From contig OX359199.1 in the NCBI GenBank assembly GCA_947172415.1, forward strand, positions 6,835,884-6,899,883: 64,000 bases of DNA, given 5' to 3'. Position numbers and translations under genes: made by a program. Shown here one piece after another: positions 32,727-37,352 of the stretch (positions are counted from its first letter, which is position 1; the number at the start of each line of letters is the position of its first letter). Source of the stretch: Chondrosia reniformis. Its lineage: Eukaryota; Porifera; Demospongiae; Chondrillida; Chondrillidae. A model generated the notes under the pieces. The model saw nothing but the letters and a program-made list of their open reading frames with translations, had not been told where the DNA came from and searched no databases.

Positions 32727-35700
32727 ATGTCAGCCAGAGACTCGCGACATAGTGGTGAGGATTAGACGAATGAGTCCAACACTACACACTAATTTGACCA
32801 ATTTAACTGGTACTATGTATTTCAAATACACATTGCTCTATGAACGAGCAGAGTTTGGATGTGTTATACACTGTACAACTGGACCTTTAGTCAGTCGGCT
32901 TCCAGTGTCTTTACCATTTTGTAGGAGTAAGCTGCGATGCTTGTGGAAAGAGCAATTTTACAGGAAAACGTTACAAGTGCTTAACTTGTTACGATTTTGA
33001 TTTGTGTTCCGATTGCTATGACAACGGTCGCGAAGGTGGAAATGGCCAGCACGAGATCACCCATCCCATGCAATGTCTTCTCACACGAGTGGAGGCAGGT
33101 ATGTGTGTCTTTGACTATCAGCTCGTTCTGATACAAATTTGTATGTGCAGATATGCATGTACTATTACACAATATCCAAGATGTCTTCCTTTCTATAAAT
33201 GCCCTAGTCTGGCTTGCTAGACCCTAATTGCCCAATCAAAGGTTTGCTTACACTTATATTCAGTACTTTCCTCCTACCCCTTCAGACCTGCACTACGCTG
33301 GAGATAGCTTATCCAACGAACAGACCCAGTCTCTAGCCTACACCTGTCCGCTATGCGGGAAGCTAGGATTTTCAGAAGGACAGCTGTTTGAACATGTTAC
33401 AAAGAGTCACACAGAATCCGGCTTGCATCCAGAATGTGTAGGTATTATATACTTGTGTGTGTAATTTATATACATACGTTATCACAGTAATATATAGATA
33501 CCCCTGGTACCCCCACTGTGTCCACACCCGTCCCTTTACTACTGCCACTCTACCCATGGTACCCCCACTGTGTCCACACCTGTCCCTTTACTACTGCCAC
33601 TCTACCCCTGGTACCCCCACTGTGTCCACACCCGTCCCTTTACTACTGCCACTCTACCCCTGGTACCCCCACTGTGTCCACACCCGTCCCTTTACTACTG
33701 CCACTCTACCCCTGGTACCCCCACTGTGTCCACACCCGTCCCTTTACTACTGCCACTCTACCCCTGGTACCCCCACTGTGTCCACACCCGTCCCTTTACT
33801 ACTGCCACTCTACCCCTGGTACCCCCACTGTGTCCACACCCGTCCCTTTACTACTGCCACTCTACCCCTGGTACCCCCACTGTGTCCACACCCGTCCCTT
33901 TACTACTGCCACTCTACCCCTGGTACCCCCACTGTGTCCACACCTGTCCCTTTACTACTGCCACTCTACCCCTGGTACCCCCACTGTGTCCACACCCGTC
34001 CCTTTACTACTGCCACTCTACCCCTGGTACCCCCACTGTGTCCACACCCGTCCCTTTACTACTGCCACTCTACCCATGGTACCCCCACTGTGTCCATACC
34101 CGTCCCTTTACTACTGCCACTCTACCCCTGGTACCCCCACTGTGTCCACACCTGTCCCTTTACTACTGCCACTCTTGTCTCCTGTAGATTTGTCCTGTGT
34201 GTGCAGCTTGTCCCACTGGAGAGCCCAATCTGGTAACCGATGACCTCCCTTCGCACTTTGCCTTAGAGCATAGGACAACCTCCAATGATGTCAACTGGAT
34301 ATCCTTTACACAGTTAAAAAGAAACTAATTTTAACCCCTTTAAGAGCAGTAGGCTTACATTTTGGGGCCCAACTTTTATTTAAGAGCAGTAGACTTATAT
34401 TTAGAGGACCCAACTATTACTCAAGAGCAGTAGCTTATATTTAGTGACCAACTTTTTATTTAAGAGCAGTAGGCTTATATTTAGAGGACCCAACTATTAC
34501 TCAAGAGCAGTAGCTTATATTTAGTGACCAACTTTTTATTTAAGAGCAGTAGGCTTATATTTAGTGACCAACTTTTTATTTAAGAGCAGTAGGCTTATAT
34601 TTAGAAGACCCAACTATTACTTAAGAGTAGTAAGTTCAGTCTCTTAACTACTGTACCTGGCCCTTGAAGACTGATTGGTAGAGTGTTTATGAGTGCAATT
34701 TAAGTCTCAGAGGTAAGGCTATGGTTTGCATAATCTGAAAGGAGACTTTCCTTAATTCATTTTTACGGTGATCGACATGTGAGGCGTCTACTTCACCAGG
34801 CCCGTGGGCTGGCACGGCGGTCAGGTGGTGGGAGGCAGCAGGGATCCCTTTTCGGCAGCTCCATGTATCATGACACTGATTTTACCTTCCCACCAGACAT
34901 GAGATACCAGTCTACCCAAGTAGCGAGCACGCGACCAAGGGGAAACTCCCGACCTGCTGCTGATGATTATGAGGTCTTTGCAGATCTTTTCCCACACTTG
35001 GGTAAGCTCTAGGCTCTGTAGCTCTCTGCCCTAAGTGGTGAGTCAAGGCTTCATATTGATGTCTACCCTGTCTACAGGAAAGTGATGTTGTAGATTATTC
35101 ATGAGTAGGTACAGAATTTAATGAGATATTTCTGTGTCTTAAAAATTTATTCACATTTGTAAATTCTTTAGTTTTGTCCAATCTACAATTATTAGGCAGA
35201 GTACACTTAAGATATAACAATAATTATGATCTCGTAAGTATATGGTTTTCTCTGTATTATCTGTATAATCTGATAAACAATCAGCTATCACCTTTGTAGT
35301 CTCAAATTAAGTATTGTAATCTAATTTTCCAGCACTTAAAAGTGGTTGAGTAGATAAGTGATGATTTCCAGTATTTTAGACTCTTAAAATGGATCTCCAC
35401 CATTATAGGTCGTGAATCCAGGGAAGGAATTCCATCCCTGCCTCCTCGTACTCAGATAAGAGACCTGGATGAGCTTCTTGCACGCCATGACAGGTCTTCT
35501 CCAAGCCATCGAGCACTTATTAAGCACATGGTACGTAGCGGAGGGGCCAGCCAATCCTCGCTGGCCCACTTCCTCCATGCCCCCGACCGTGACCTGGACA
35601 TACCCACTGTCACCGAGAAGTCACAGGTGCGGGTGAGAAACACTGAACAGACAAAAAAGAGTGAAGAGACTGACTCAGGATTTCTCCTGTCCAAGTGAGT

Positions 35701-36272: not shown

Positions 36273-36507
36273 GTTGTGTAAACAATAAAAAACTCCTAAT
36301 TTTATACTAGCTACGTACATATATTACAAGCTGTTTTGTTGCCATAATATCTTCAGGCTGTCCATCACTGACACTTTGAGTGATGAAGACCAGGAGGTAG
36401 AAGGAGAGAACAGCAGTAAAGAAGGCATGAAGAGTACTTATATACAGGAACTCATACTGTCTACCCTGTACATGTCGGATGAGAGCTCTGAGTCCGAAAC
36501 TTCTTAA
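32727..36507 (+). CDS. KCMF1: E3 ubiquitin-protein ligase KCMF1
   Basis: Seven exons: 32727-32754, 32925-33098, 33286-33437, 34188-34298, 34767-35001, 35409-35694 and 36357-36507. Phases agree; 378 residues (human 381). The ZZ zinc finger covers about 10-57 (GVSCDACGKSNFTGKRYKC, then CYDFDLCSDCYD and HPMQCLLTRV). A C2H2 segment (YTCPLCGKLGFSEGQLFEHV) follows. ICPVCAACPTGEPNLVTDD is the conserved drought-induced-19-like region. The C-terminus has YIQELILSTLYMSDESSESE, matching the end of human KCMF1. KCMF1 works with UBR4 in protein quality control. The intron after GAT GTC AAC TGG (34298) has no GT-AG solution and is a clear U12 AT-AC intron. Intron 3 holds a 52-bp minisatellite and intron 6 a GTT run. 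Confidence 0.96.
33500..34170. repeat. Minisatellite, 52-bp unit, about 13 copies (KCMF1 intron 3)
   Basis: The unit contains CCCTGGTACCCCCACTGTGT and CCACACCCGTCCCTTTACTA and is almost perfectly conserved. As 52 is not a multiple of three, all three plus frames cycle through it, creating three long overlapping stopless frames that are not genes. The array ends 18 bp before the exon at 34188 and supplies part of its pyrimidine tract. Confidence 0.97.
34299..34766 (+). other. U12-type AT-AC intron of KCMF1
   Basis: The 5' end reads ATATCCTTT (34299-34307), an exact match to the minor-spliceosome AT-AC donor. TTCCTTAAT (34748-34756) matches the U12 branch site TTCCTTRAY. The intron ends TTTTTAC at 34766, 10-12 nt after the branch adenosines. 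Joining the flanking codons in phase 0 gives DVNW-GDRHVRRLL, aligning with the VRHVRR region of KCMF1. Confidence 0.92.
34334..34640. repeat. Tandem repeat inside the U12 intron, about 40-bp unit
   Basis: Units contain TTAAGAGCAGTAGGCTTATA and a variable end (TTTAGTGACCAACTTT or AGGACCCAACTATTAC). Two unit types alternate. It ends about 100 bp before the branch site. Confidence 0.9.
35774..35935. repeat. pogo-like end plus short tandem repeat (KCMF1 intron 6)
   Basis: CAGTCAAACCTCGATTA at 35774 resembles the transposon ends at 19900 and 22273. It is followed by about four units of roughly 33-35 bp built on ATATGTGTGCATCACTATAT and TGTAATAGTATT. Confidence 0.6.
36193..36275. repeat. GTT/TTG trinucleotide microsatellite
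   Basis: Runs of GTT broken by GTGTT at intervals, in the last KCMF1 intron about 80 bp before the final exon. Confidence 0.97.
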
Positions 36508-36681: not shown

Positions 36682-37175
36682 GCCTGGTAGCCTTAAATGG
36701 CGAGGGCTTAATGTGCCCAGGCAGTTGGACTATGTACCTGGGCGTACGGCCTGGTAGCCTTAAGTGGTGAGGGCTTAATGTGCCCAGGCAGTTGGACTAT
36801 GTACCTGGGCGTACGGCCTGGTAGCCTTAAATGGCGAGGGCTTAATGTGCCCAGGCAGTTGGACTATGTACCTGGGCGTACGGCCTGGTAGCCTTAAGTG
36901 GTGAGGGCTTAATGTGCCCAGGCAGTTGGACTATGTACCTGGGCGGACGACCTGGTAGCCTTAAATGGTGAGGGCTTAATGTGCCCAGGCAGTTGGACTA
37001 TGTACCTGGGCGGACGGCCTGGTAGCCTTAAATGGTGAGGGCTTAATGTGCCCAGGCAGTTGGACTATGTACCTGGGCGGACGGCCTGGTAGCCTTAAAT
37101 GGTGAGGGCTTAATGTGCCCAGGCAGTTGGACTATGTACCTGGGCGGACGGCCTGGTAGCCTTAAGTGGTGATGG
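36682..37175. repeat. Minisatellite, 67-bp unit, about 7.4 copies
   Basis: Seven 67-bp units begin GCCTGGTAGCCTTAA and contain GTGCCCAGGCAGTTGGACTA. They lie between the convergent KCMF1 and POLL 3' ends. Units differ at a few sites (AATGGCG/AGTGGTG; GCGTACG/GCGGACG) that alternate in the first four units, indicating duplication of two-unit blocks. Confidence 0.97.
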
Positions 37176-37352
37176 TTTATATGTATGTGTCCAGGTATAG
37201 ATAGCCCTGTGCCCCTTAACCAGCACTGGTTGGCACTGTATATATATGCTTATGAACACCAGCCATACGCACATATACATACATACATGTATGGTTAACC
37301 TGAAATTTATAACATATACACAGGAATAATAATACATTTATTATATTGAAAA

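Follow-up and report, generated by a model that had tools for sequence, protein, structure and literature searches.

The closest described counterpart of the intron examined here lies in the same gene of fly and human. Table 2 of Lin et al. 2010 (PMC2831892) records CG11984/KCMF1 as carrying an AT-AC intron of the U12 type in both animals, and gives its number as 3 of 6 for a species that the table leaves unstated and that we take as fly. CG11984 also stands in a table of genes with U12-type introns (PMC2952598), and Kcmf1-a is one of the "classical U12-type introns" for which fly strains with a disrupted minor spliceosome show partial splicing (PMC7644725). With U12-type introns at large, as described in PMC3584512 and PMC10639083, the intron examined here has in common consensus donor and branch sites, a short distance from branch site to acceptor, AT-AC termini, and a genome with minor snRNAs. 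The latter source is a pan-eukaryote survey, and a count of the terms "sponge", "Porifera" and "KCMF1" in its main text returned none of them. Pairing between U6atac and the donor has been probed with a human-gene reporter in CHO cells (PMC4980772), in which U6atac positions 14/15 pair with donor positions 5/6; the donor mutant CC5/6GG was rescued partly by the U6atac suppressor GG14/15CC alone and nearly fully when a matching U11 was supplied as well. This rescue sets the register of the helix as +5 with G15 and +6 with G14.

We analysed a 64-kb stretch of DNA (the window) from the kidney sponge Chondrosia reniformis (GCA_947172415.1, contig 11, 6835884-6899883). Positions 34299-34766 are, with high confidence from the sequence, a U12-type AT-AC intron of its KCMF1 gene, sharing its subtype with the U12-type intron that KCMF1 has in fly and human. 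Introns of this kind are already known in the gene, and the present one is less remarkable than the preliminary description of this locus had supposed, given that the KCMF1 counterpart was listed as early as 2010. The sponge intron is probably orthologous to that of fly and human, with which it shares the gene, the AT-AC subtype and the U12 type. It differs in its host and in being intron 4 of 6 coding introns, and the likeness established is one of gene and subtype.

The KCMF1 gene and its fourth intron

The orthologue of the ubiquitin ligase KCMF1 comprises seven coding exons, which join across six coding introns into an open protein of 378 residues. All but intron 4 (AT-AC) are GT-AG introns. 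The features of the locus, in window coordinates, are as follows.

32727..32754, plus strand: KCMF1 coding exon 1, MSARDSRHSG, start codon predicted
32925..33098, plus strand: coding exon 2, most of the ZZ zinc finger, from spliced translation and domain match
33286..33437, plus strand: coding exon 3, from spliced translation and structure match
34188..34298, plus strand: coding exon 4, 5' of the AT-AC intron, ending in TTSNDVNW; the zf-Di19 match ends here
34299..34766, plus strand: putative U12-type AT-AC intron, KCMF1 intron 4 of 6 coding, 468 nt, phase 0, from sequence
34299..34307, plus strand: 5' splice site ATATCCTTT, exact consensus match
34339..34632, plus strand: 40-nt tandem repeat, about 7 copies, filling most of the AT-AC intron, from repeat analysis
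34748..34756, plus strand: branch-site motif TTCCTTAAT, with 10 nt between it and the intron end
34765..34766, plus strand: 3' terminal AC of the intron, from sequence
34767..35001, plus strand: coding exon 5, 3' of the AT-AC intron, starting GDRHVRRLLHQARGL, from protein alignment
35409..35694, plus strand: coding exon 6, from spliced translation
36357..36507, plus strand: coding exon 7 and stop codon, ending YIQELILSTLYMSDESSESETS before the stop, from translation and protein alignment

Among solved structures, the best match to the predicted protein is human KCMF1 (PDB 9d9z_E; E = 5.8e-58, residues 6-376), in an alignment that is good to about residue 172 and loose after it. Both the ZZ and the zf-Di19 domain are present. 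A search of the genome_contigs set for relatives of KCMF1 returned 34 pattern stretches, none of which was a relative. Tandem repeats occur elsewhere in and around the gene: intron 3 consists mostly of 13 near-identical 52-nt copies (98% matches; window 33499-34175), and a 67-nt repeat in about 7.5 copies occupies window 36682-37184, starting about 175 nt past the stop codon.

The preliminary description had proposed this AT-AC intron from its letters, and donor, branch site, acceptor, phase and protein alignment all agree with the proposal. The donor is exact, the branch motif TTCCTTAAT fits the consensus TTCCTTAAC close to the 3' end, and the terminal AC follows that motif 10 bases later. 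The candidate branch adenosine would be 34754 or 34755, 11-12 nt from the end of the intron. The 3' end reads TTCCTTAATTCATTTTTAC; its last AG starts at 34743, which leaves the final 20 bases free of AG, as had been stated. Phase 0 is likewise upheld on both sides, the cut falling between TGG and GGT, whereas minor introns on the whole avoid that phase (PMC10639083). Unlike U12-type introns generally, the sponge one is filled for the most part by a tandem repeat. The alignment claimed at the HVRR motif is borne out by the match of the spliced protein to human KCMF1, which runs unbroken across the junction, with sponge EHRTTSNDVNW joined to GDRHVRRLLHQARGL against human EHRAPRDLDESSGVRHVRRMFHPGRGL. 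Retention of the intron would add nine codons and then a stop.

Taken singly, each motif occurs at about chance level within 64 kb. ATATCCTTT was seen twice against 1.11 expected (at least two in 33 of 100 shuffles), and a branch site with its AC four times against 1.58 expected (at least four in 11 of 100 shuffles). Their combination at an in-frame KCMF1 junction is not chance: for both motifs jointly at a frame-compatible junction, the figure is 1.9e-7 under a first-order Markov model over the 2193 boundary pairs defined below. Across 255 kb of the same chromosome, 36 loose motif pairs were listed, and the exact ATATCCTTT was found in the KCMF1 pair alone. One minus-strand GT-AG motif pair (donor 41017) was considered as a further minor intron and rejected, as stops interrupt all of its flanking frames. 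At the gathering cut-off, Rfam gave no match in the whole 64-kb window.

Intron boundaries and splicing pathway

The assignment could fail in two ways, through its boundaries or through the spliceosome that acts on them. If the ends had been misplaced, the intron might be an ordinary GT-AG or GC-AG one, and the preliminary description went too far in stating that no GT-AG boundaries work. When donors at 34230-34340 were combined with acceptors at 34600-34800, 2193 pairs kept the frame and were free of stops, including 5 GT-AG, 7 GC-AG and 14 AT-AC pairs. The core of the statement stands, in that none of the five GT-AG pairs is competitive. We enumerated the GT-AG and GC-AG boundaries, and all 12 were rejected: they lose conserved residues or insert extra ones (ISFTQ, RLSLIHFY or similar) between conserved blocks, and the GT-AG donors are poor (GTAACC, GTCAAC, GTTAAA). 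Among the 2193 pairs, 34298/34767 is the sole one that has consensus sites and leaves the match from EHR to HVRR unbroken, and we consider misplaced ends next to impossible. An AT-AC intron could instead be excised by the major (U2) spliceosome, as the AT-AC U2-type introns of sodium-channel genes are, and terminal dinucleotides alone do not fix the pathway (PMC2831892). The partial splicing of the fly Kcmf1-a intron despite a disrupted minor spliceosome (PMC7644725) speaks for the same possibility, and independence of U6atac would be convenient in view of the changed U6atac box described below. However, +5 is G in those sodium-channel introns (PMC2831892) and C in the KCMF1 intron, and for this reason a U2-type AT-AC intron was rejected. 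Moreover, the donor agrees with the U12-type consensus at all nine bases, and the branch site fits U12 with a predicted duplex of 7 bp. Excision by the major spliceosome is thus very unlikely in our judgement.

For the U12-type intron that we favour, we infer both splicing and use of the minor spliceosome, and take the order of steps from other species (PMC3584512). U11 would pair with ATATCCTTT and U12 with TTCCTTAAT, so that the di-snRNP would bridge the intron. The U4atac/U6atac.U5 tri-snRNP would then join, U6atac would displace U11 at the donor and pair with U12, and the intron would be excised between TGG and GGT with the frame undisturbed. The support is at the level of sequence and comprises the motifs, the boundaries, the frame, the continuity of the protein, matches to four minor snRNAs, and the complementarity of U11 to the donor and of U12 to the branch site. 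The step at which U6atac meets the donor would have to depart from the textbook scheme if the only U6atac gene found works, because its donor-pairing bases are changed.

Minor-spliceosome genes and other minor introns

The genome searched comprises 117,379,552 bases in 15 contigs (C). Rfam models were scored on the best candidates for each of the four minor snRNAs, and each gave one match, that of U4atac being below its cut-off.

C4: U12, 92.1 bits (cut-off 53), one match among the best 42 of 5144 candidates
C3: U11, 89.2 bits (cut-off 39), one match among the best 39 of 7759 candidates
C3: U4atac, 46.8 bits, below the cut-off of 53, one match among the best 48 of 4578 candidates
C13:6345854-6345975 (L004:1501-1622), plus strand: U6atac, 101.9 bits (cut-off 33), model 1-126 of 126, one match among the best 46 of 5444 candidates

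The preliminary description had taken the intron to show that the genome keeps a working minor spliceosome. The four matches favour this view in so far as the RNAs are concerned; that they work is inferred, and the sole U6atac found is without the usual donor-pairing bases. U4atac 3-16 perfectly complements U6atac 34-47 over 14 bp (CGTCCTTATCGAGG / CCTCGATAAGGACG), which is good evidence that the two genes work together. Both depart from their Rfam consensus within this complement, and U4atac carries an Sm-like site, AATTTTTGG; this site, the complement and the upstream element described next all lend support to the weak U4atac match. Upstream of U11, U4atac and U6atac (L002, L003, L004) an identical ACCACAAGTGTTT occurs at -56, -57 and -61, respectively, and U12 (L001) has upstream a related AACCACAAC (AACCACAACTATTT). 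ACCACAAGTGTTT is a likely candidate for the proximal sequence element of the sponge snRNA genes. The predicted duplex of U11 with the KCMF1 donor is -4.5 kcal/mol, as it is for the Rfam consensus U11, and that of U12 with the KCMF1 branch site is -7.4 kcal/mol.

Five protein-family searches of the genome were run, of which two were empty. The search for CHHC zinc fingers, a family search that also matches in 1 of 14 control genomes, found two exons on C7. The U11-48K-like one scored 38.1 bits (cut-off 21.1), and its locus (L006) is nearest to U11-48K (PDB 2vy4, E = 2.6e-8, vs 2.9e-5 for GTSF1); the other (L007) is GTSF1-like (E = 1.7e-10). The genome searches for PDCD7 and for LSM12 (domain AD) gave no matches, a result that does not show absence because neither search matched any of the 14 control genomes.

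STX6, PHB2 and LSM12 were chosen from Table 2 of Lin et al. 2010 (PMC2831892), where they have U12-type introns in fly and human. Together with a genome-wide pattern for short AT-AC introns, the following loci were obtained.

C10:6881158-6881240 (L005), minus strand: SHQ1 orthologue, 83-nt AT-AC U12-type intron, phase 1, from ATATCCTTT to TTCCTTAACTGATAATTAC
C13 around 323804-323995 (L015), minus strand: STX6 orthologue, U12-type GT-AG intron, donor GTATCCTCC, branch AGCCTTAACT, 863 nt, phase 1
C3 around 9405316-9405693 (L011), minus strand: PHB2 orthologue, junctions GT-AG only, exons read by eye

The short AT-AC pattern had one match, the SHQ1 intron, against two for its backwards control, so the statistics of the pattern are weak. 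The 47 joined residues match Pfam SHQ1 across the junction (E = 3.8e-12), and the same 47-residue piece gave no match among solved structures. For STX6, the joined exons score 67.7 bits against STX6_10_61_N and the first exon alone 38.6. The sponge STX6 intron is GT-AG like that of fish, whereas those of fly and human are AT-AC. PHB2 also differs from fly and human, which carry an AT-AC U12-type intron in this gene; the sponge orthologue appears to be GT-AG throughout, and no [AG]TATCC[TC]T donor was found in 3378 bases of the locus on either strand. Against solved structures the locus is PHB2 rather than PHB1 (E = 1.6e-42 vs 6.4e-33). One of its introns contains a long ACAGTACCCCCACCTC repeat.

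The donor-pairing box of U6atac

In the single U6atac gene found, which encodes a core component of the minor spliceosome, AGCCGAGAG takes the place of the Rfam consensus AAAGGAGAG. Over the longer stretch, the sponge has GUGUUGUAUGAGCCGAGAGAAGGUUAGCA against GUGUUGUaUGAAAGGAGAGAAGGUUAGCA in Rfam, and all three changed positions are upper case (well conserved). Numbered as in human U6atac, these are A12G, A13C and G14C, and G15 is unchanged. The C13 gene is U6atac by its similarity to the whole model and a candidate for the U6atac role at the donor: it has the score and the U4atac pairing of U6atac, and lacks the AAAGGAGAG donor box. Compared with human U6atac and the GG14/15CC suppressor (PMC4980772), the sponge RNA matches the U6atac model over its full length and shares with the suppressor an altered position 14. 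In the laboratory assay, however, the donor was changed to match U6atac, whereas none of the three sponge donors examined has a matching change. Donor positions +6 and +7 are unpaired with the sponge U6atac in all three introns (KCMF1, SHQ1 and STX6). The sponge RNA pairs with 4 of 6 donor positions in KCMF1 and SHQ1 and 3 of 6 in STX6, against 6, 6 and 4 of 6 for the consensus. For KCMF1, the predicted duplex is -1.6 kcal/mol with the sponge U6atac vs -5.7 with the consensus, or -0.9 vs -6.4 kcal/mol when the tenth donor base is included.

Two explanations of the changed box were weighed. We tentatively favour, stopping just short of calling it probable, a loss: from these sequences, the sponge minor spliceosome may well have lost much of the canonical helix between U6atac and the 5' splice site, while keeping the pairing of U11 and that of U12 with the branch site, the U4atac duplex, and donors that are canonical at +4 to +7 in KCMF1, SHQ1 and STX6. 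U11 and U11-48K would in that case determine which donor is used, and U6atac would grip the donor through a shortened pairing at +4 and +5, and also at +8 and +9 in KCMF1 and SHQ1. The other explanation is that a canonical U6atac is missing from the assembly, in unassembled sequence or on the alternate haplotype, that the copy found is a variant or pseudogene, and that the minor spliceosome is conventional. The state of the assembly lends itself to this, as complete BUSCOs reach 71.1% and k-mer completeness 69.43% in the primary assembly (PMC12181767), and the U6atac match is one among the best 46 of 5444 candidates scored. The copy found is nevertheless a strong one: it scores 101.9 bits and is perfectly complementary over 14 bp to the single U4atac located. 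A TTTAAATA box, a T-run and the upstream element common to U11 and U4atac go with it, and the U4atac match and intact-looking promoter argue against a pseudogene. Pattern scans for further copies were empty. A 23-base U6atac pattern with up to 3 mismatches matched the genome once, at the known gene (control, none); the canonical box with up to 2 mismatches gave three matches, none of which Rfam recognised as U6atac, against one in the control; and the U6atac pattern had no match in genome_contigs. A missing canonical copy is a serious possibility that we nonetheless rate as rather doubtful.

If the helix is indeed reduced, a shifted pairing of U6atac positions 18-27 (AGAAGGUUAG) with the donor might stand in for it, at a predicted -4.8 kcal/mol for KCMF1 and -4.3 kcal/mol for SHQ1. 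As a sponge adaptation this pairing was rejected, since the Rfam consensus U6atac can pair in this way too, with equal energy. Positions 18-27 are, moreover, needed for pairing with U12, and for these two reasons the shifted pairing is given little weight. Literature searches on sponge minor introns, sponge U6atac and diverged U6atac showed, among the papers listed, none on the change described here.

The KCMF1 intron would extend the minor intron known from fly and human to a sponge, at least by gene and subtype. AT-AC junctions tend to be missed by standard annotation pipelines, and this one is a clean marker for annotation checks. The U6atac change carries a larger stake than the intron and is what specialists would wish to see checked. 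A reduced helix, if true, would mean that two checks on one splice site have become uncoupled in nature. With position 14 and two neighbours changed and the donors canonical, the sponge would then offer a natural test of how far the helix is needed.
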